A DNA stretch of 49,669 bases from an uncultured Aureispira sp. (GTDB lineage Bacteria > Bacteroidota > Bacteroidia > Chitinophagales > Saprospiraceae). Shown in pieces: positions 3,474 through 49,669 of the stretch (position 1 is the first letter of the stretch; each line of letters starts with the position of its first letter). The position numbers and the translations under genes are program-made. The stretch spans positions 1 through 49,669 of the forward strand of contig CAJQOX010000130.1 in NCBI GenBank assembly GCA_905480075.1. Direction: 5' to 3'. The notes below the pieces were generated by a model. The model saw nothing but the letters and a program-made list of their open reading frames with translations, searched no databases and was not told where the DNA came from.

Positions 3474-3699
3474 AAAATAAACCATGTAATAAATATTTAA
3501 AAATCGCATCTTATAAAAATTAAAAATTTCACTCCAAAACATAAGAACCTATCATACACTACAAATTAATTATACATATAGTTTTAGGTTTTCTCTATTG
3601 CATAGTAATAATTTTAACATCCCTTGTAAAAGGATTATAATGAAATGCAGAGATTTTTATGTACATTTAGCAACATTGTTATTAACAAAAAAAAGAAAA

Positions 3700-4626
3700 A
3701 TGAGATATAGCATATTATTACTTTTAGTTCTGACCTTTTCATTTACGGCCTGCGATACCACGCCCGACAATGCAAATGAAGCCAAGCTGATCATAAAATT
3801 TAAACTAGACAGCACACAGGCCCGGCTTGATGCCTTCGGACAACCTGTTTCTGTTCCCTCCGGCAATGCAGCCCAACATCCACAATTTAATGGTTTGAGT
3901 GCACACAAGATAGAATTAGTTCCTAATGCACTGACAGCAGTGAACGCCGGGCCGATTATTTACCATGGTTCAGAGACAACGACCGGAGGAAATAATGCAA
4001 TAAATTTTGATGAAGCAATTATTAAAAATGACGGTGAAATTTTTCTGGAAGTTCCCCTGAAGGACATAACTACAGGCAGTTATGAATACATCCGGGTATC
4101 GGTCAGTTACCAGAATTTTGATGTTTACTATAACATTATCAACATACCTTTTAACAGTTCGACCATCGATTTGAATAATCAAACCGGTACTTTGGCATCC
4201 TTTGTAGGTTTCAATACTTATATTGGCAATTTAACTCCCAAAAACGTAACAGAGGTTATAAACTTAAATCAACTACAGGGCTATTGGGCCTTTGAGACCA
4301 TTTTGTCAAGTCCTTATGAAAGCTTTAATGATGTATATACAGGGCAGGCTGCAGGAACCACTGTTGTCAACCCAATAAGTTCAAGTACTCCAACTCCTGC
4401 GGGGTCATGTCTTGTAACAGGCACTTTCGGCAGCACGCCATTGGAAATCACAGGAAGTGAGACAGATGATATCACATTAACCTTATCATTTTCAACAAAC
4501 AACAGCTTTGAGTGGACCGACAGCAATGGTAACGGCGAATTGGATATAAACGCTGACACCTCTTCTGCTACTTTAGAAACAGTGATAGACATGGGGCTTC
4601 GAGGACTGAATGCAAGTTTTCAATAA
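3700..4626 (+). CDS. Lipoprotein of unknown function with a C-terminal Ca-loop-like motif
   Basis: 308 residues. The N-terminus is a lipoprotein signal (MRYSILLLLVLTFSFTAC) with the lipidated cysteine at about residue 18, so it should be anchored in the cell envelope. After the signal comes a beta-rich region (EAKLIIKFKLD, EIFLEVPLKDI, YIRVSVSYQNFDVYYN). Near the C-terminus DSNGNGELD (about 274-282) resembles an EF-hand/dockerin-type calcium loop. The ATG at 3700 is preferred over an in-frame start 34 codons upstream because it puts the signal peptide at the N-terminus. I do not recognise a named family. It stands alone and is followed by a terminator. Confidence 0.75.
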   Translation: MRYSILLLLVLTFSFTACDTTPDNANEAKLIIKFKLDSTQARLDAFGQPVSVPSGNAAQHPQFNGLSAHKIELVPNALTAVNAGPIIYHGSETTTGGNNAINFDEAIIKNDGEIFLEVPLKDITTGSYEYIRVSVSYQNFDVYYNIINIPFNSSTIDLNNQTGTLASFVGFNTYIGNLTPKNVTEVINLNQLQGYWAFETILSSPYESFNDVYTGQAAGTTVVNPISSSTPTPAGSCLVTGTFGSTPLEITGSETDDITLTLSFSTNNSFEWTDSNGNGELDINADTSSATLETVIDMGLRGLNASFQ

Positions 4627-4643
4627 AAGAATACCTATTTCTT

Positions 4644-4678
4644 TAAAAGGCCTTTTGAGATAATCAAAGGCCTTTTTT
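4644..4678 (+). terminator. Rho-independent terminator
   Basis: Near-perfect palindrome with arms aaaaggccttttga (from 4645) and tcaaaggcctttt (to about 4676), a very short loop and a T-run to 4678. It lies 17 nt past the stop of the lipoprotein gene. Confidence 0.85.
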
Positions 4679-4808
4679 AATTCCAAGGAGCATACAGTAA
4701 TCTTATAAAAAATCATTAAAATTAATTCAATTATGGTAGTGAATAAGTAGATAAACTTATACATTTAGATTACCCTAAGTAATGAGGCAATAAATTAACA
4801 AAACAGTG

Positions 4809-5447
4809 ATGAACAACATTAAAATAATCCCCTTCCTATTTTTTATATTACTTACAGGATGTCAGCATTCTCCCTCCGGGGCAATGAATGATGATGAGAC
4901 TATAGTTGAAGTATCACAAATCACTTCAGAATCCAAGAAGGATACAAAAGAGAAGAATCCTTCAAAAACCACCTCTGTTGACTATCTAACATACCGTGAA
5001 GCCGATTTTTTTTCTATAGAATACCCTGAAAATTTTATAGTATCAAGAGATACAATGAGAGAAAAAAACAACCCTTCCAAAATCTCATTTCCGGAAGATG
5101 AAGCCTATTTTCGTTCTCCGGACGGGTTGGTTGAATTTTATATTTTTTCGCCACAATGGGGTGGCGACCCTGAAAGATATCTTGACACAGGGGAGAATGA
5201 GGAAGTGGTAGCAGAGGACACAAAAACAATAAATAAAAAGTATGACAAGGATATTCACAAATATGTGACAGTAAAAGCAAAGGATGGGGCCTATCTACGT
5301 TCCTGGGTATCTATAGAAACGGATATAGAATCAGGTAACAACTTGCATCATGTTTTTGGATTTCAATACTCAGACAAGGATGCTTATAAAAAATACCGTG
5401 AACAATATCTGAAGTTCAAAAAATCCTTAAAGCAATATGCTGATTAA
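4809..5447 (+). CDS. Lipoprotein of unknown function
   Basis: 212 residues. Signal MMNNIKII... ending LLTGCQH gives a lipobox with the cysteine near residue 18. A Ser/Lys/Glu-rich linker follows (about 25-55), then a compact domain containing YREADFFSIEYPENF, EFYIFSPQWGGDP and a C-terminal YKKYREQYLKFKKSL. The pattern of 'sits on the sequence as a Tyr/Phe-rich beta domain ending in a helix' recalls small stress-type lipoproteins, but I cannot name a family. The ATG at 4809 is chosen over the overlapping GTG at 4806. The acyltransferase that follows starts 51 nt later and is probably cotranscribed. Confidence 0.7.
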   Translation: MNNIKIIPFLFFILLTGCQHSPSGAMNDDETIVEVSQITSESKKDTKEKNPSKTTSVDYLTYREADFFSIEYPENFIVSRDTMREKNNPSKISFPEDEAYFRSPDGLVEFYIFSPQWGGDPERYLDTGENEEVVAEDTKTINKKYDKDIHKYVTVKAKDGAYLRSWVSIETDIESGNNLHHVFGFQYSDKDAYKKYREQYLKFKKSLKQYAD

Positions 5448-5498
5448 TTGATTTCAGGATTAATAATAGATATATCAAACCCAGCAGCAGAAAAGGAT

Positions 5499-6659
5499 AT
5501 GCTAAAAATATTTAAAATAAACCTGAGTAAAGACAGGACATTTGGTCTTGATGTATTGCGGTTTCTGGCAATAACGATGGTCCTTATAGAACATGGACGT
5601 ACTTTATTAAAGCCTCTTACAGAGAAGACAGAAATATTGAAACTGGGTGGATTCTGGGGGGTGGAATTATTTTTTGTACTCAGTGGATTTTTAATAGGGA
5701 GAATACTTCTGAGATTATATGAACCGGAGGCTGACTTTGATCTTAAAAAATTATATTCTTTCTGGAAAAGGCGTTGGTACAGAACCCTTCCGAATTACTA
5801 TATAATATTGATTATCAATCTCATTATTGCCTATTCCCTGTCCTCAGCGCAGCTTCCTTTTTCTGAGTATATCCCCTTCTTTTTCTTTTTTCAAAACATG
5901 TATACTGAACATCCCCGTTTTTTTGGAGAGGCGTGGAGTCTTGCCGTGGAAGAATGCTTTTATATATCTTTTCCTATGTTACTGTTTCTGACAAACAAAA
6001 TAGTTGGTAAAATAATATCTGAAAAAAGGATGTTTGTTGCATGTATATTGATCGTCTTGTTTTTTTCCAATAACATGCGAATGATCGTCGTTTGGGGGTC
6101 CGACCCTTTGTGGGACCAAGGCATACGAAAAATAGTACTATTGCGACTTGATTCTATATTGACAGGGGTACTTTTTGCCTGGTTCAATTTATATTACAGG
6201 GAGATTTTTTACAGGTACAGATACAAAATGTTTTTTATTGCTTTGGTTCTTCTATCAATGTCTTTTTACAATTATTATGCAGATAAGCTATATATCGAAG
6301 AACAGCATTCCTTTTACAGTAAAACCTTTTACTTTTTGCTGACAAGTACAGGCTTTGCATTATGCCTCCCCTTTGCAGATTCTGTCAAAAAAATGAAGAA
6401 ACGTTCATTTTCAGGAAAATTTATTACTTTAATATCAATAATTTCCTATTCCATTTATCTGACACATTATTCTTTGGTACTACGTATACTCAGGCAGTTC
6501 GACCCTCTTAACAACAATATCTACACCAGCATAATACTCTATTTACTTTATCTTTTACTCAGTATTATAATCTCTCTTTTGTTATATAAATTTTTCGAAA
6601 AACCATTTATGGAATTGCGTGACAGGCTGAAGACAAAACAGGGCAATTCCAGAGGATAA
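5499..6659 (+). CDS. Acyltransferase-3 family membrane protein (OafA/YrhL-like)
   Basis: 386 residues, polytopic. Family 3 acyltransferases move acetyl or other acyl groups across the membrane onto surface sugars or lipids. Visible landmarks are the N-terminal FGLDVLRFLAI followed by IEHGRT (the conserved helix-1 histidine), GVELFFVLSGFLIGR in helix 2, KRRWYRTLPNYY and AWSLAVEECFYISFP. About ten hydrophobic segments follow, and the C-terminus has the family ending FEKPFMELRDR. The ATG at 5499 is preferred; an upstream in-frame TTG directly abuts the previous stop. Neighbour genes give no clue to the acceptor. A second member of the family lies in the glycan operon at 40429-41577. Confidence 0.88.
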   Translation: MLKIFKINLSKDRTFGLDVLRFLAITMVLIEHGRTLLKPLTEKTEILKLGGFWGVELFFVLSGFLIGRILLRLYEPEADFDLKKLYSFWKRRWYRTLPNYYIILIINLIIAYSLSSAQLPFSEYIPFFFFFQNMYTEHPRFFGEAWSLAVEECFYISFPMLLFLTNKIVGKIISEKRMFVACILIVLFFSNNMRMIVVWGSDPLWDQGIRKIVLLRLDSILTGVLFAWFNLYYREIFYRYRYKMFFIALVLLSMSFYNYYADKLYIEEQHSFYSKTFYFLLTSTGFALCLPFADSVKKMKKRSFSGKFITLISIISYSIYLTHYSLVLRILRQFDPLNNNIYTSIILYLLYLLLSIIISLLLYKFFEKPFMELRDRLKTKQGNSRG

Positions 6660-8668: not shown

Positions 8669-10387
8669 ATGCAAGAAGCATTTTTCAAGTTATGGTCAAC
8701 CGGCAATTTTGATCAGACTGTTGCCCTTTTAATACTTCTCGGACTATCTTTTCTGCTGGGATTATTACTGTGGGCCCTGTTGGCACATTTGCCATCTGCC
8801 CGAAAACACAAAAAAAGAATTTCTAAACTTGAGGAGAACAACAAGTTGATAAAGAAAGATTATACTGATGTTTCTGAGCGATATAAAGTCGTCAATGCCA
8901 AATACAACCGTTTGAGTTCTGACCTTCAGAATGCGGAAGCCAAGCTCAAGGAAAAAGTTCAAAAAACAATAGATCAACAGGAAAACATAAAAATGATTTC
9001 AAGTCAATTGGAATTATATAAAGACCATGCCCGTAATTTTAAGGAATCAAAAGAAAAGTTGATGATAGAATTTCAGAGACTTTCAGAAGTTAACAAAAAA
9101 TTAAAAATAAAGACGGATGGCCTGAAAAACATTGTGGAGGATATAGAAGCAGAAAAAGTAGATTTGCTGATCGAGAAGCAGGAAAGTATTGATGCCGGCA
9201 TTGAATTAAATAAACAGATCAAAGTCATATCTGAAAAAATGACGGAATCTGAAAAACAGATTTCGATGTTAAAAACAGACCTTGAGGAGGCAATGACAAA
9301 AAAGGCTAAATACAAGAAAATGGTCTTTGAACTCGAGGCCTCAGAAGAACTTGAGGGTGTAGGGGATCAGGAATTAAAAAATCAGCTGGTCGACCTAAAA
9401 TCTCATATTAATGACCTGGAACAGGAGTCTTCTGATTTGATGAAAAGACTTGCTCCCTTTCTTGAGAAGGAAAGTTCCTTATTACTAAAAGAGAGGGAAA
9501 TTGATGAGATGATGGATATTACATTGAGTGAGGTGGCTGATAATATGGAAAAGGACGGTTTTTATGTAGACTATCTTGAAGATGACCTTATTGAAGACAA
9601 AAACTATCTTGAAAAAGCACTGACAGAAGAAAGCGTTCAGGAATCACCTGATAATAATAAATTTGAATTAATATCCTTTGATGAAGAAGAAGAAATCGTG
9701 CTTGATGATGCTTTGGTAATGTCTTCCGAAGCGCTGAACAGAGAGGGATTTTATGCCGACATTGACAAAGCTTCTTTAGTGGAAAGCATGGATATACCGG
9801 GAGATACGTTGACGGAAACCAAGCTGAAGGAGATTAACAACATCATGAAAGACTCCTTATTTTTTAATGAAAAGGCATTAGAAAAAGGATTTATAGATGA
9901 CGAAAAAAAACTGACAGCAGAACTAAAAAAAATAACTACAGTGGTGCAAGCGGAAGAATTATCTGAAGCGCCTGTTCAAATAATAGACAGTGAACATGAT
10001 GAAATGGACGCTGCCCTTGAATCATCAAATAAGGCAATGTCTGTGAGTTCGCTTTATTCTCCTTCAGAAACAAAAAAGCCTTTATCTTCTTCCGTGATTG
10101 ACGATAAGACCGAACAACCAAGTTCCGAATTAGAATCTGCTGTCATGCAGGAGATTGGCCGTTCTGTCCCTCAGGCACTTGAAGAAGATAAGGATGACCT
10201 TAAAAAGATTGATGGTATTGGTCAGTTTCTTGAACAAAAGCTAAATCAATTCGGGATTTACACCTATAATCAAATAAGTCAATTTGACGAAAATTTCATT
10301 GATAAACTAGGTGCTGCACTTGGCTTTTCAGAAAAAACTATTTTAAGGGATAAATGGGTAGAACAGGCCGGAATATTATTAAATTGA
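8669..10387 (+). CDS. Membrane-anchored coiled-coil protein with acidic repeats and a C-terminal helix-hairpin-helix domain
   Basis: 572 residues. One transmembrane helix at about 17-41, then a basic patch (RKHKKR) and a long coiled coil (about 50-275). A strongly acidic central region holds what I read as four copies of a short repeat, at about 278-301, 344-364, 389-411 and 443-465. Three share a (K/E)(D/E/K)GF(Y/I)x(D) ending (EKDGFYVD, NREGFYAD, LEKGFIDD). The C-terminus (about 508-570: LKKIDGIGQFLEQKLNQFGI, YTYNQISQF) is a helix-hairpin-helix fold of the kind common in DNA-associated proteins. Bacteroidota proteins combining TM, coiled coil and this C-terminal domain are known, but I know of no proven function. 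Likely cotranscribed with the OmpA gene. Confidence 0.8.
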   Translation: MQEAFFKLWSTGNFDQTVALLILLGLSFLLGLLLWALLAHLPSARKHKKRISKLEENNKLIKKDYTDVSERYKVVNAKYNRLSSDLQNAEAKLKEKVQKTIDQQENIKMISSQLELYKDHARNFKESKEKLMIEFQRLSEVNKKLKIKTDGLKNIVEDIEAEKVDLLIEKQESIDAGIELNKQIKVISEKMTESEKQISMLKTDLEEAMTKKAKYKKMVFELEASEELEGVGDQELKNQLVDLKSHINDLEQESSDLMKRLAPFLEKESSLLLKEREIDEMMDITLSEVADNMEKDGFYVDYLEDDLIEDKNYLEKALTEESVQESPDNNKFELISFDEEEEIVLDDALVMSSEALNREGFYADIDKASLVESMDIPGDTLTETKLKEINNIMKDSLFFNEKALEKGFIDDEKKLTAELKKITTVVQAEELSEAPVQIIDSEHDEMDAALESSNKAMSVSSLYSPSETKKPLSSSVIDDKTEQPSSELESAVMQEIGRSVPQALEEDKDDLKKIDGIGQFLEQKLNQFGIYTYNQISQFDENFIDKLGAALGFSEKTILRDKWVEQAGILLN

Positions 10388-10483
10388 TTCAATAATTTAT
10401 TAAATTTATATAATCCTTTTTTTTATAAGCTGTCCTTTTTCAAGTCTACAATCAAGTTATAAGCTGTTTACAAAAAAAACAAG

Positions 10484-11506
10484 ATGTTTACAAACCGAAG
10501 ATTCACTTTGATTCAATCAATTGCCTGGACCTACAGGGACTTGCTTATGTTTGCATTACTCAGTGCATACCCTGTTTGTATATATGAATTTATGGAATGG
10601 AAATGGTTGGGAATTCCTCCACTTCCAATAGCTTTAATGGGTACAGCAGTAGCTTTCAACCTGGGTTTCAAAAACAATAATGCCTATAACAGGGTATGGG
10701 AGGCCAGAAAAATATGGGGAGCAATTACCAATATCAGTCGTTCCTGGGGAATGATCTGTCTTGATTTTATCAGCAATCAATACACCTCCGAAAAATACAG
10801 CGAAGCAGAACTTAAGGAAATTCATCAACTACTTATTTACCGTCACATTTCATGGGTGACCGCTTTGCGATATCAATTAAGAGAACCAAAGGAATGGGAA
10901 CTTCAGACTTCGGCTGCTGCTATTCGTTTTCGTGAAAAATTCTTTGTTATTGCCGAACACCAGAAATCCTGCCGGGACGCCTTATCGGGATTCACAGAAG
11001 AAAATGAGCTGAATGATATACTTGGCCATTCCAATCCTGCATTACAGATTCTCAGATTACAATCAGCTACCATGAAAGATCTTAATAAAAAAGGATTAAT
11101 AGATAACTTCAGACATATTGCCATGCAAGATATGATTCATTCCATGATTAATCAACAGGGAGGTGCTGAACGAATAAAGAATTTCCCGTTTCCAAGGCAG
11201 TATGCTTCTATGAGCTTCTTTTTTGTAGCCATTTTTATTACCGTTCTTCCCTTTACTTTATTGACTCCTTTAGCCGCTTTGGGAGAAGGCTTTGTATGGC
11301 TCACAATTCCTTTCAGCATTTTGGTTTCCTGGATATTTTACAGTATGGAAAAAGTGGGCGATTTGAGTGAGAACCCCTTTGAAGGAAGAGGAACGGATGT
11401 TCCTATTACCACAATTTGCAGAAGCATAGAGATTTCACTTAAAGAAATGCTGAAAGAACAAGACCTGCCAGAAAAACTATCTCCTGTCAACCATATTGTC
11501 ACCTGA
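10484..11506 (+). CDS. Bestrophin-family anion channel
   Basis: 340 residues with paired membrane helices near the N-terminus and at about 240-290. Family landmarks are FTLIQSIAWTYRDLLMF, PIALMGTAVAFNLGFKNNNAYNRVWEARKIWG and, near the C-terminus, MEKVGDLSENPFEGRGTDVP. This last acidic loop binds calcium in eukaryotic bestrophins. Bacterial members (YneE/UPF0187) form pentameric ion channels in the inner membrane. The S41 peptidase gene starts 26 nt after the stop, and the CtlX gene follows that, so the three may be one transcript. Confidence 0.92.
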   Translation: MFTNRRFTLIQSIAWTYRDLLMFALLSAYPVCIYEFMEWKWLGIPPLPIALMGTAVAFNLGFKNNNAYNRVWEARKIWGAITNISRSWGMICLDFISNQYTSEKYSEAELKEIHQLLIYRHISWVTALRYQLREPKEWELQTSAAAIRFREKFFVIAEHQKSCRDALSGFTEENELNDILGHSNPALQILRLQSATMKDLNKKGLIDNFRHIAMQDMIHSMINQQGGAERIKNFPFPRQYASMSFFFVAIFITVLPFTLLTPLAALGEGFVWLTIPFSILVSWIFYSMEKVGDLSENPFEGRGTDVPITTICRSIEISLKEMLKEQDLPEKLSPVNHIVT

Positions 11507-46723: not shown

Positions 46724-48352
46724 ATGAAAAAAACCATGAAAAAATGGATAGGATTAGCTTTGATTATTCTCACTCCTATCTTGATATTTGGCTTATGGCC
46801 ACTGGAAAATCCTGAATACAAAATTGTTTTTAATCAGAAAAAAATTGACTACAGAAATAATTTCCTGAATCAGAAGCAATTGACTTCCGATTCTGTACCT
46901 CCTCCAAACATCGTCATCATTCTGGCCGACGACCTGAGTCTGATGGATGTTTCCTCTTATGGTGGCAAAAATGTAAAGACCGAAAACATAGACAGGATCG
47001 CTGCAAATGGCGTGCGCTTTGAAGAAGGCTATATCAGTTCGCCTATCTGTGCCCCTTCAAGGGCAGGGTTGATAACCGGCAGATATCAGCAACGTTTTGG
47101 CTTCGAAATAAACATTCATGAACGCTATCCAAAAAACCGGCTGGAATACTTTGTCTATGCCAACCTGATGAATACCGGAAACTGGCTGGTAGCAAAACAC
47201 GATGAATGGGCCGTCCCCTCCTTTGAAGATATGCACAAACAAGGCTTACCTCCTACTGAATTTACTCTCTCCGAGCTCCTGAAAACCAAAGGCTACAACA
47301 CAGCTGCGCTGGGAAAATGGCATATGGGTTACAACAAAACGGCTATTCCGGTCAACCGCGGTTTCGATTATCACTATGGTTTTTATGAGGCCTTTAGTCT
47401 CTATGCACCGGTAGACAAAGAGGATATTGTCAATCAGAAACTTCAGGACTTTTCGGACCCTCATATCTGGGGAAAGGGCCGGTCCGGCAATTGTGCGATC
47501 CGAAAAAATGACAAGGAGATCCAAGAAGATGGCTACCTGACTAACAGGATAGCTGAAGAGACCAATAAATGGATAAAAGAACACAAAGATGAGCCCTTTT
47601 TTGTCTATGTCCCCTTTTCAGCTCCGCATACTCCTTTTCAGGCTACCAAAGAATATTACGATCAATATGCTCATGTAAAATCTCCGGAAAAAAGAATTTA
47701 CTATGCCATGATTCATGCCCTTGATGATGCAGTGGGCAGTATTATGAAAAATCTGGAAGAACTGGAACTGGAAGAAAACACTTTGGTCATCTTTCTGAGT
47801 GATAACGGTGGGGCCACTTATACCACAGCAGCAGACAACAGTCCACTGAAAGGAGGAAAAATGTCAAATTTTGAAGGAGGTATCCGGGTGCCTTATTTGA
47901 TGCAATGGAAGGGTAAAATACCGCCCGGCAGTATTTACAGCAAACCGGTGAGTGCCCTGGATATCTTTGCCACTTCAAGCGAAATATCAAAATTAAAATT
48001 ACCCGATGACCGCGAATATGACGGGGTCAACCTCCTACCCTATCTGATCGATTCTTCCTATGTCGACAAAACTCCGCACGAGGCACTTTTCTGGCGCTCA
48101 GAATACCACAAGGCTATCCGCAAGGGTGACTGGAAATTGATCCGGGATGATATGTCTGACCAAACGGTTCTTTACAACCTGAAAAAGGATTTTGAAGAAA
48201 AGACAAACCTGGCAAAAAAACATCCGGAAATTGTCAAAAGCCTGCAAGCAGATTTCAAAGTCTGGGAAAAAAAGCTGATAAAAAGCAACTGGCCAAGAGT
48301 GATGGATTTAGAAATGCAGGACGGGAAAGCTGTTTATTATTTTCCACTTTGA
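46724..48352 (+). CDS. Type I sulfatase (arylsulfatase family)
   Basis: 542 residues with an N-terminal membrane anchor or uncleaved signal (IGLALIILTPILIFGLWP). The metal-binding IILADDLS (Asp69, Asp70) is followed by ICAPSRAGLITGR, the sulfatase modification signature with Cys109 in C-x-P-S-R, so it should be converted to formylglycine by a maturase that is not in this window. Later motifs are LGKWHMGY, PFFVYVPFSAPHTPF, DNGGATY and KAIRKGDWKLIRDD. It removes sulfate esters, probably from marine polysaccharides, but no substrate is evident. It lies 24 nt after the redox gene. Confidence 0.92.
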   Translation: MKKTMKKWIGLALIILTPILIFGLWPLENPEYKIVFNQKKIDYRNNFLNQKQLTSDSVPPPNIVIILADDLSLMDVSSYGGKNVKTENIDRIAANGVRFEEGYISSPICAPSRAGLITGRYQQRFGFEINIHERYPKNRLEYFVYANLMNTGNWLVAKHDEWAVPSFEDMHKQGLPPTEFTLSELLKTKGYNTAALGKWHMGYNKTAIPVNRGFDYHYGFYEAFSLYAPVDKEDIVNQKLQDFSDPHIWGKGRSGNCAIRKNDKEIQEDGYLTNRIAEETNKWIKEHKDEPFFVYVPFSAPHTPFQATKEYYDQYAHVKSPEKRIYYAMIHALDDAVGSIMKNLEELELEENTLVIFLSDNGGATYTTAADNSPLKGGKMSNFEGGIRVPYLMQWKGKIPPGSIYSKPVSALDIFATSSEISKLKLPDDREYDGVNLLPYLIDSSYVDKTPHEALFWRSEYHKAIRKGDWKLIRDDMSDQTVLYNLKKDFEEKTNLAKKHPEIVKSLQADFKVWEKKLIKSNWPRVMDLEMQDGKAVYYFPL

Positions 48353-48596: not shown

Positions 48597-48603
48597 TGGC
48601 AAC

Positions 48604-48686
48604 ACTTATCGGGAAAGGTGGAGGGACTTGCCCTTTGAAACCTTAGCAACCTACTTTTGTAAGGTGCTAACTCAAGACAGATAAGT
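48604..48686 (+). ncRNA. SAM-I (S-box) riboswitch aptamer
   Basis: P1 pairs acttatc (48604-48610) with gataagt (48680-48686). Inside are the conserved S-box strings: aaaggtggagggac, gccctttgaaacc, agcaacc and aaggtgctaac. These match the SAM-I consensus (GAGGGA, GCCC, GAAACC, GCAACC, GGTGCTAA) in order. High S-adenosylmethionine should stabilise the aptamer and allow the downstream terminator to form. The expression platform lies at 48685-48766 and the controlled gene starts at 48814. Confidence 0.95.
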
Positions 48687-48724
48687 TGGAAGAAATCTCT
48701 TGGTTAGTCAATAACCTGCAGCAT

Positions 48725-48766
48725 AATCTCTTCTGACGGTCCTGTCAGAAGAGATTTTTTCTTTTC
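48725..48766 (+). terminator. Riboswitch-controlled intrinsic terminator
   Basis: 13-bp perfect stem (arms aatctcttctgac 48725-48737 and gtcagaagagatt 48744-48756), loop ggtcct, then a U-run (ttttt, cttttct). The 5' arm can alternatively pair with gttggaaga at 48685-48693, which overlaps the end of P1. That gives a 9-bp antiterminator with two G-U pairs. It lies 47 nt before the start codon. Confidence 0.88.
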
Positions 48767-48813
48767 TGTCTTTCCTGTATTATTTTATTGTTTAAGCGAT
48801 ATAAAATATTACT

Positions 48814-49669
48814 ATGAAAATTAACTTGAAAAGACAGAATGACTACTTCCATTTTATTGCAGAAAACGAGTCAGGGGCACAGCTGCATTTGGATGCCTCC
48901 CCTTCTATAGGAGGACAAAACAAGGGCTTCCGACCTATGGAATCTCTGCTTGCCGGATTGGCCGGTTGTTCTGCCATTGACATTATCAATATTCTCAAAA
49001 AACAAAGACAGCAGATCGAGGACTTCAATATAGAAGTGGAGGCAGACCGTAAAAAGGACAGCATTCCTTCCCTTTTTAATACGATTGACCTGAAGATCAT
49101 TATCCGTGGCGAGGTCAGCGAAAAAAGATTGCAGAAGGCCATTAAGGTGACCAAAGAAAAATACTGCTCGGTCTACCATATTCTCAAAGAAACAGCTACG
49201 ATCAATTACAGCTATGAATTGCTGCCTGCACTGACAAAGACTGCTGCAAAAACTCTGGCAAAATTTGAAACCCTGGCCATACGCACCCAAACAAAGCGCA
49301 GCAAAAACAGAGAACATTCGGCACCCTTGTACCTGACCTCGAGTTTCACCTTCGAGGATGCAGAACAGGCGAGGGCGGTATTCGCCGGAGAAGAGGACGC
49401 ACACATCTATTCACGCTTTTCGAATCCCAATGCCTCGGAATTCATAGAAAAAATGTGTTTGCTCGAAGGCACGGAAGACGGCTTTGCCACTGCCTCGGGC
49501 ATGTCGGCTATCTTTGCCTCCTTTGCCCCCTTTCTGAAAAGCGGCGACCACCTGATCGCCTGCCGTTCGGTCTTTGGCAACACCCACCGCATCATTGCCG
49601 AAATCCTTCCTGCCTGGGGCGTGGAATATACCTATGTAGACATCGACAAGCCGGAGACCTGGGAAGGGG
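48814..49669 (+). CDS. OsmC-like domain fused to an O-succinyl/acetylhomoserine sulfhydrylase-type PLP enzyme (3' partial)
   Basis: The frame is open from the ATG at 48814 to the window end (285 codons read, no stop). Residues ~1-136 form an OsmC/Ohr-like domain. The conserved GFRPMESLLAGLAGCSAIDI has Cys52, and KYCSVYHILKETATINY has the second Cys at 118. From ~150 the frame continues into a Cys/Met-metabolism PLP enzyme: FETLAIRTQTKRS, PLYLTSSFTFEDAEQAR, YSRFSNPNASEFIEK and ATASGMSAIFASF, the start of the MetB/MetZ/CGS fold. The PLP lysine and C-terminus lie outside the window. The PLP half therefore belongs to methionine synthesis, matching the SAM-I riboswitch upstream. The first half likely reacts with peroxides or persulfides. 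GC content rises here; one 60-nt row (49501-49560) has 34 G or C. Confidence 0.85.
   Translation, partial: MKINLKRQNDYFHFIAENESGAQLHLDASPSIGGQNKGFRPMESLLAGLAGCSAIDIINILKKQRQQIEDFNIEVEADRKKDSIPSLFNTIDLKIIIRGEVSEKRLQKAIKVTKEKYCSVYHILKETATINYSYELLPALTKTAAKTLAKFETLAIRTQTKRSKNREHSAPLYLTSSFTFEDAEQARAVFAGEEDAHIYSRFSNPNASEFIEKMCLLEGTEDGFATASGMSAIFASFAPFLKSGDHLIACRSVFGNTHRIIAEILPAWGVEYTYVDIDKPETWEG

Follow-up and report, generated by a model that had tools for sequence, protein, structure and literature searches.

At the 3' end of a 49,669-nucleotide contig from an uncultured Aureispira sp. (contig C130 of a 408-contig draft genome; hereafter the window, meaning the whole stretch that was analysed), an OsmC-like domain is read in the same frame as the beginning of a PLP enzyme of methionine synthesis. 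This arrangement raises two questions: is the fusion a genuine gene, and what would an OsmC-type domain contribute to the incorporation of sulfide?

The fused reading frame and its distribution

The frame extends from 48814 to 49668 on the forward strand, encodes 285 residues and is still open at the contig end. Pfam analysis placed an OsmC domain (PF02566, E 4e-20) at residues 34-132 and a Cys_Met_Meta_PP domain (PF01053, E 7e-31) at residues 152-284, the latter covering profile positions 1-131 of 381; both matches were above cut-off. The OsmC part contains Cys52 and Cys118, and further cysteines follow at positions 215 and 250. The ORF and Pfam analyses thus confirmed the initial annotation, which had described one uninterrupted frame with a two-cysteine OsmC domain followed by the start of a PLP enzyme. 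On the forward strand, the frame comprises a predicted YhfA-type OsmC domain (residues 1-138, 48814-49227), for which NF008009 was the best NCBIfam model but stayed under its cut-off, a fast-changing linker (residues 137-149, 49222-49260) and the N-terminal third of a putative MetZ-like, PLP-dependent O-acylhomoserine sulfhydrylase (49261-49668), truncated by the contig end.

The remainder of the gene was found on contig C58 (L003) of the same draft genome. The C58 frame begins 18 residues beyond the window end and shares 84-89% identity with the fused relatives described below across 233-234 residues. It contains the PLP lysine motif HSATK and the stop codon, both of which the initial annotation had proposed to look for further downstream, and metX comes next. 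The ends of C130 and C58 share no exact overlap, and we infer their junction from the comparison with the fused relatives.

A sequencing or assembly artefact that merged two genes could be imagined in a 408-contig draft genome in which the gene runs off its contig. However, the same fusion in four other genomes of the genus, two of which are assembled in just 2-3 contigs, has already refuted this explanation, to which we attach practically no weight. The window's own genome included, the fusion was present in five of the nine same-genus genomes searched. In the four others (L010-L013), the frame is uninterrupted over 536-537 residues and a metX homologue is located downstream (E 1.2e-111 or lower). 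As L011 and L013 are near-identical, the four relatives provide three independent fused genes. Their stop-free frames also ruled out a lost stop codon and restart around 49210-49260, an error that had been envisaged at the outset.

Codon comparison of the window with L010-L013 indicated that both domains are conserved (pN 0.04-0.17, pS 0.61-0.95, the near-identical pair excepted); the 13-codon linker displays pN values of 0.41-0.80 (0.04 for the near-identical pair) and is free of stop codons. As an ATG or GTG is absent from residues 133-158 in all five sequences, it is improbable that a second translation product is initiated between the domains, although three of the five have TTG codons in this stretch. 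Of the four genomes of the genus that lack the fusion, two possess an unfused OsmC protein (60% identity in G002, 37% in G007), and no sulfhydrylase adjoining either gene was recognised.

Outside the genus, candidate fusions were rejected, as the merged frames of 530-609 residues returned by the genome search proved to be two separate ORFs in all fetched cases (which include G371, G277, G200, G269, G296, G149, G123, G159, G436, G099, G540, G568, G624, G585, G618 and G589). No fusion was present among the 26 loci L187-L212, 21 of which hold both genes, or among 64 loci with osmC and a sulfhydrylase gene, drawn from the best 80 of at least 547. The question of how widespread the fusion is, raised in the initial annotation, thus receives a double answer: among the loci inspected, the fusion itself is confined to one genus, while the two genes, when separate, frequently lie next to each other throughout the phylum.

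The riboswitch and the two protein halves

A SAM-I riboswitch aptamer (S box) at 48603-48687 on the forward strand matched Rfam RF00162 with 68.1 bits (gathering score 44.4), which bears out its earlier recognition ahead of the fused gene, and a SAM-I element precedes this gene in all four fused relatives L010-L013. A terminator-like hairpin with a 14-bp stem and a T run, at 48725-48760 on the same strand, is the probable expression platform of the riboswitch. The fold z-score was -5.0 for 48672-48775 and, as judged by eye in the same-genus relatives, the stem varies in sequence yet keeps its pairing. No clear antiterminator was seen in the folds of the riboswitch region. We infer the direction of the switch, in which low SAM would probably turn on the methionine operon osmC::metZ - metX. 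Just 5' of the riboswitch, at 46724-48352, lies a sulfatase-like gene, which we take to be such from its CAPSR motif.

The SAM-I element was rejected as a constant companion of the osmC-sulfhydrylase pair: an Rfam match was present in only 12 of 30 loci, four of them being the fused ones. It was also found in one of ten further chosen osmC loci, and a model built here (R1) matched 8 of 95 loci.

In the full-length relative L012, residues 152-533 span positions 1-381 of PF01053, and the lysine of the HSATK motif, the same as on C58, is at position 351. The best NCBIfam models for L012, PRK08133 (512 bits, cut-off 522) and TIGR01325 (491 bits, cut-off 510), were both just under their cut-offs, and the best solved relative of the enzyme half is an O-succinylhomoserine sulfhydrylase (9iqh). 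Judged by these best family models, the second half is a predicted MetZ-type O-acylhomoserine sulfhydrylase; the enzyme had first been labelled as one of trans-sulfuration, and this label has to give way to direct sulfhydrylation. Because metX lies downstream, O-acetylhomoserine is the probable substrate. The sulfhydrylase part has cysteines 215, 250, 328 and 454 in common among the four full relatives.

For the OsmC half, the best solved relatives by sequence (phmmer) were 2e8c, 1vla and 1ml8. In a structure comparison, the AlphaFold model of the domain (pLDDT 96.5) showed the OsmC fold across the whole domain and came closest to 1ml8 and 2egt, both with Z 17.7 (rmsd 1.3-1.4 over 127-128 residues), followed by 2pn2 (Z 15.7), 1vla (15.6), 2onf and 1lql (both 15.3); chains titled Ohr or OsmC, from E. 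coli and others, gave Z values of about 10 to 13.7. PRK10738, the NCBIfam YhfA-type model, was the best of the two models matched, with 87.6 bits against a curated cut-off of 138. From sequence and predicted structure together, the OsmC part is assigned to the YhfA type.

Cys52 and Cys118 are invariant in two alignments of 56 and 48 sequences. Two cysteines in a member of the same superfamily are what an active lipoyl-dependent organic hydroperoxidase of the Ohr/OsmC type would also have. The position ten residues before Cys52 is occupied by Met42 in the window, and by Met in 53 of the 56 and in all 48 sequences; E. coli OsmC has a Glu aligned there, which we take to be its catalytic Glu49. 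Since Met nearly always replaces the catalytic Glu of Ohr/OsmC, a peroxidase function is unlikely for the OsmC part. In this comparison, which is an alignment-based one, the stretch bearing the catalytic Arg of E. coli OsmC, presumably Arg39, falls in a gap. Directly after the Met42 position, nearly all sequences have Glu or Gln (Glu in the window, in 21 of the 56 and in 27 of the 48), so that a shifted carboxylate might be possible. Against a hydroperoxidase, the OsmC part of the window had no match at E<=1e-5 to the OsmC/Ohr subfamily models TIGR03562 and TIGR03561, unlike E. coli OsmC, the positive control, which matches both, TIGR03562 above cut-off. Published passages place YhfA in a subfamily of its own, the third within the Ohr/OsmC superfamily, and call it uncharacterised, note that it lacks Arg and Glu, or exempt it from the peroxidases (PMC8945050, PMC4069020, PMC3469484); the lack of the peroxidase Arg and Glu is stated in a passage of PMC8945050, and the subfamily is set apart from the peroxidases in passages of PMC4069020 and PMC8945050. 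An active hydroperoxidase of the Ohr/OsmC type is thus a very improbable identity for the OsmC part.

Gene neighbourhoods of the YhfA-type OsmC proteins

GTDB genomes were scanned with OsmC sequences alone, and the best 80 of at least 547 loci were taken. A sulfhydrylase gene is located at most 1.5 kb away in 64 of these 80, with osmC first in 56 cases, the reversed order in 5 and convergent genes in 3. Pedobacter contributes 39 of the 80 loci; among the 41 others, a sulfhydrylase is present in 30 and another sulfur gene lies in the flank in 17. As a control, 40 stretches of the same nominal size, taken at arbitrary places in 20 genomes of the phylum, gave a sulfhydrylase in 0/40 and another sulfur gene in 1/40, bearing in mind that the sulfur-gene queries were picked after viewing the loci, which favours them, with the exception of the sulfhydrylase query, which was not so chosen. 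The pair is also found in records titled Calditrichota, Melioribacteraceae, Spirochaetia, Armatimonadetes and Gemmatimonadales, although the titles of draft genomes may be wrong. The window protein itself had matches at E<=1e-20 in 151 of the 395 genomes of the class sample and in 174 of the 296 genomes of the phylum sample, many of them to one half only.

A gene-order tree, built on few columns and with many forks open, requires at least two changes to the reversed order on its well-supported branches and therefore suggests more than one inherited gene arrangement. In many relatives, the osmC and sulfhydrylase genes are closely spaced or overlapping, and a single SAM-I element stands ahead of the fused gene, as would be expected if the coupling were structural or regulatory only. 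The OsmC domain would then sense the thiol or sulfide state or aid assembly, and the fusion would reflect co-expression from one SAM-controlled operon. We hold this explanation to be unlikely, since osmC has become re-associated in other arrangements and with further sulfide enzymes, which suggests a chemical role, as do the invariant cysteines.

Such other enzymes are found in several loci. In a Mucilaginibacter record (L085), one cluster comprises cysH, cysD, cysN, osmC, a sulfhydrylase gene, a sulfite reductase gene and a siroheme gene; similar sets were observed in Pontibacter (L086 and L099) and in L158, the latter without sulfite reductase in the stretch fetched. Some osmC loci without a sulfhydrylase display the orders osmC-cysE-cysM (L184) and osmC-cysE (L173), and in L113 a sulfite reductase gene adjoins osmC where the sulfhydrylase is missing. 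Likewise in the absence of a sulfhydrylase gene, the order is siroheme genes-sulfite reductase-metX-osmC in L179 and cysK-sulfite reductase/rhodanese fusion-osmC in L093. In L206 (638-3499), a cysteine desulfurase-like gene, osmC and a sulfhydrylase gene follow in tandem with overlapping open frames. Rhodanese (three) or ThiF-type (three) genes are present in the flanks of 6 of the 64 pairs, and rhodanese also in L193, L194 and L199. Neither a sulfhydrylase nor any other tested sulfur gene was present in 14 of the 80 loci, and several further loci, such as L169, L170, L171, L172 and L183, contained none of the tested genes either.

Sulfur handling is the most likely task of the OsmC part, given its two invariant cysteines, the loss of the peroxidase Glu and partners that produce, transfer or consume sulfide. 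Of the functions first suggested for this domain, sulfur handling thus gains from the association with sulfur genes, and hydroperoxide reduction in the Ohr/OsmC manner finds no support on the grounds given above.

Some features of these loci are recorded here for themselves. In L093 (Sunxiuqinia indica, 3625-5997), the sulfite reductase-like protein carries a C-terminal rhodanese-like domain (residues about 685-791) and its gene stands directly before the YhfA-type osmC; a second OsmC-family gene, whose nearest model, OsmC_like_Se, was matched under cut-off, is found with cysK on the 5' side. The desulfurase-osmC junction of L206 carries a low-complexity repeat (SSQQPEA/SSPKPAA). In the sulfate-assimilation cluster of L085, a Mucilaginibacter MAG, siroheme-synthase N-terminal domains are fused to a TauE/SafE sulfite exporter domain (9837-11336). 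The Bacteroidota-like sulfur locus L113 is in a MAG titled Bifidobacterium breve, probably by an error of binning or naming. In L178 (1970-5816), a YhfA-type osmC adjoins moaE, with TauE upstream, in an apparent molybdenum-cofactor cluster.

Among 60 relatives, a sulfhydrylase was present in 15 of the 16 genomes with NIR_SIR, a family that also takes in nitrite reductases, versus 12 of the 44 without it (Fisher p 4e-6, kinship ignored). Because the sulfhydrylase accompanies NIR_SIR, we rejected the general form of the idea that the sulfhydrylase pair is an alternative sulfur route where sulfite reductase is absent. At the threshold applied, the OsmC type was present in 24 of the 27 sulfhydrylase genomes, and two of the remaining three gave a weaker OsmC match.

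Several observations count against a sulfur accessory. No sulfhydrylase lies in the flank of 16 of the 80 loci (five of them in Pedobacter), and the OsmC type occurs in 8 of the 33 genomes without a sulfhydrylase, two of which belong to the window's genus (G002 and G007). The yhfA gene of E. coli adjoins crp and prkB, not sulfur genes, and NIR_SIR had no match in the window's own genome (92% complete). The control genome of Bacteroides ihuae has no match to the OsmC family although PF01053 is present. Moreover, free sulfide is already produced in genomes with sulfite reductase, where a carrier would not be indispensable.

Peroxiredoxin genes beside methionine genes, in L138 (4419-5051; of the 1-Cys type according to Pfam, between homoserine dehydrogenase and osmC) and L167 (11355-11987), fit protection equally well. 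The OsmC part would in that case be a local thiol-disulfide or peroxide/polysulfide reductase which keeps sulfide, homocysteine or enzyme cysteines reduced in air, and no sulfur atom would pass through it. The OsmC fold with its two invariant cysteines, the several cysteines of the sulfhydrylase part (those common to the four full relatives included) and the Bacteroides control are in agreement with such a guard. On the other side, Met replaces the catalytic Glu in nearly all sequences aligned, the catalytic Arg is without counterpart in the alignment, and the recognised neighbours make or use sulfide more than they are stress genes, the stress search having covered one peroxiredoxin type. We hold local redox protection to be less likely than sulfur delivery through the two cysteines, the mechanism that we favour and of which it is the main rival.

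Proposed role and comparison with known systems

Our leading reading, put forward tentatively, is that the YhfA-type OsmC part is a dedicated accessory which handles sulfur for the sulfhydrylase step, delivering it as a persulfide via Cys52/Cys118, within a SAM-I-controlled operon. The OsmC and sulfhydrylase parts would work together, the direction and chemistry of the sulfur transfer being put forward as follows. When SAM is low, the SAM-I riboswitch would permit transcription of osmC::metZ - metX. MetX would activate homoserine, and the sulfhydrylase part would form homocysteine from sulfide and O-acylhomoserine (probably O-acetylhomoserine). Cys52 and Cys118 would take up sulfur as a persulfide, with sulfane sulfur as the source or with sulfide captured by a Cys52-Cys118 disulfide, and the OsmC part would release sulfide beside the PLP site. 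In this way, a scarce, volatile and easily oxidised compound would be delivered instead of reaching the site by diffusion. The fusion would lock in the 1:1 partnership which is seen elsewhere as neighbouring genes.

A broader proposal is possible, though more speculative: YhfA-type OsmC proteins in general may form a cysteine-based sulfide relay, in which sulfite reductase, rhodanese or cysteine desulfurase would supply the persulfide sulfur and the PLP enzymes of homocysteine and cysteine synthesis would receive it, with the fusion as the channelled form of the relay. The proposal thereby assigns a concrete and testable place in metabolism to an uncharacterised branch of a large superfamily of redox proteins. 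If it is true, it is misleading to annotate YhfA-type proteins as "hydroperoxide resistance" proteins, and many Bacteroidota incorporate sulfide with the help of a protein partner that is absent from the textbook pathway.

The OsmC part shares its fold, two cysteines, the KYCSV motif and the absence of Glu at the peroxidase position with the YhfA subfamily (E. coli YhfA, 1ml8; Aquifex Aq_1549, 2egt/2e8c; Thermotoga TM0919, 1vla). It differs from this subfamily in that it is fused to or beside a sulfhydrylase, whereas E. coli yhfA is beside crp, and in that it matches the NCBIfam YhfA model under cut-off. The enzyme half resembles MetZ (PRK08133, TIGR01325; 9iqh) over the whole domain, in its PLP lysine and in sequence, but bears an N-terminal OsmC domain and is slightly under both curated cut-offs.

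In Ca. Pelagibacter ubique, osmC, bhmT, metY and mmuM are all preceded by SAM riboswitches and jointly increase when sulfur is limiting, OsmC being interpreted as a peroxidase in the passages concerned (PMC5069961). An osmC gene under a SAM riboswitch is thus shared with the window; according to the same passages, the riboswitch is there SAM-V, one locus also having SAM-II, and osmC is next to bhmT and ordL and not fused (PMC5069961). Both halves and the riboswitch are of known kinds; the PMC literature searched yielded no paper that describes the fusion or the gene pair, the Pelagibacter case being the nearest.

The sulfur carriers ThiS, CysO and HcyS have a beta-grasp fold with a C-terminal Gly-Gly, and HcyS-MetY of Wolinella is a case of carrier-dependent sulfhydrylation. 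CysO-CysM and the ThiS/MoaD-E1-SirA systems likewise combine a small protein with a PLP enzyme that incorporates sulfide; as described in a passage of PMC1779556, ThiS/MoaD, E1 and SirA share sulfate-assimilation operons with O-acetylhomoserine sulfhydrylase and sulfite reductase. Here, an OsmC fold with cysteines takes the place of the beta-grasp with its C-terminal thiocarboxylate, so that the OsmC part could only work like a carrier, the transfer being a proposal.
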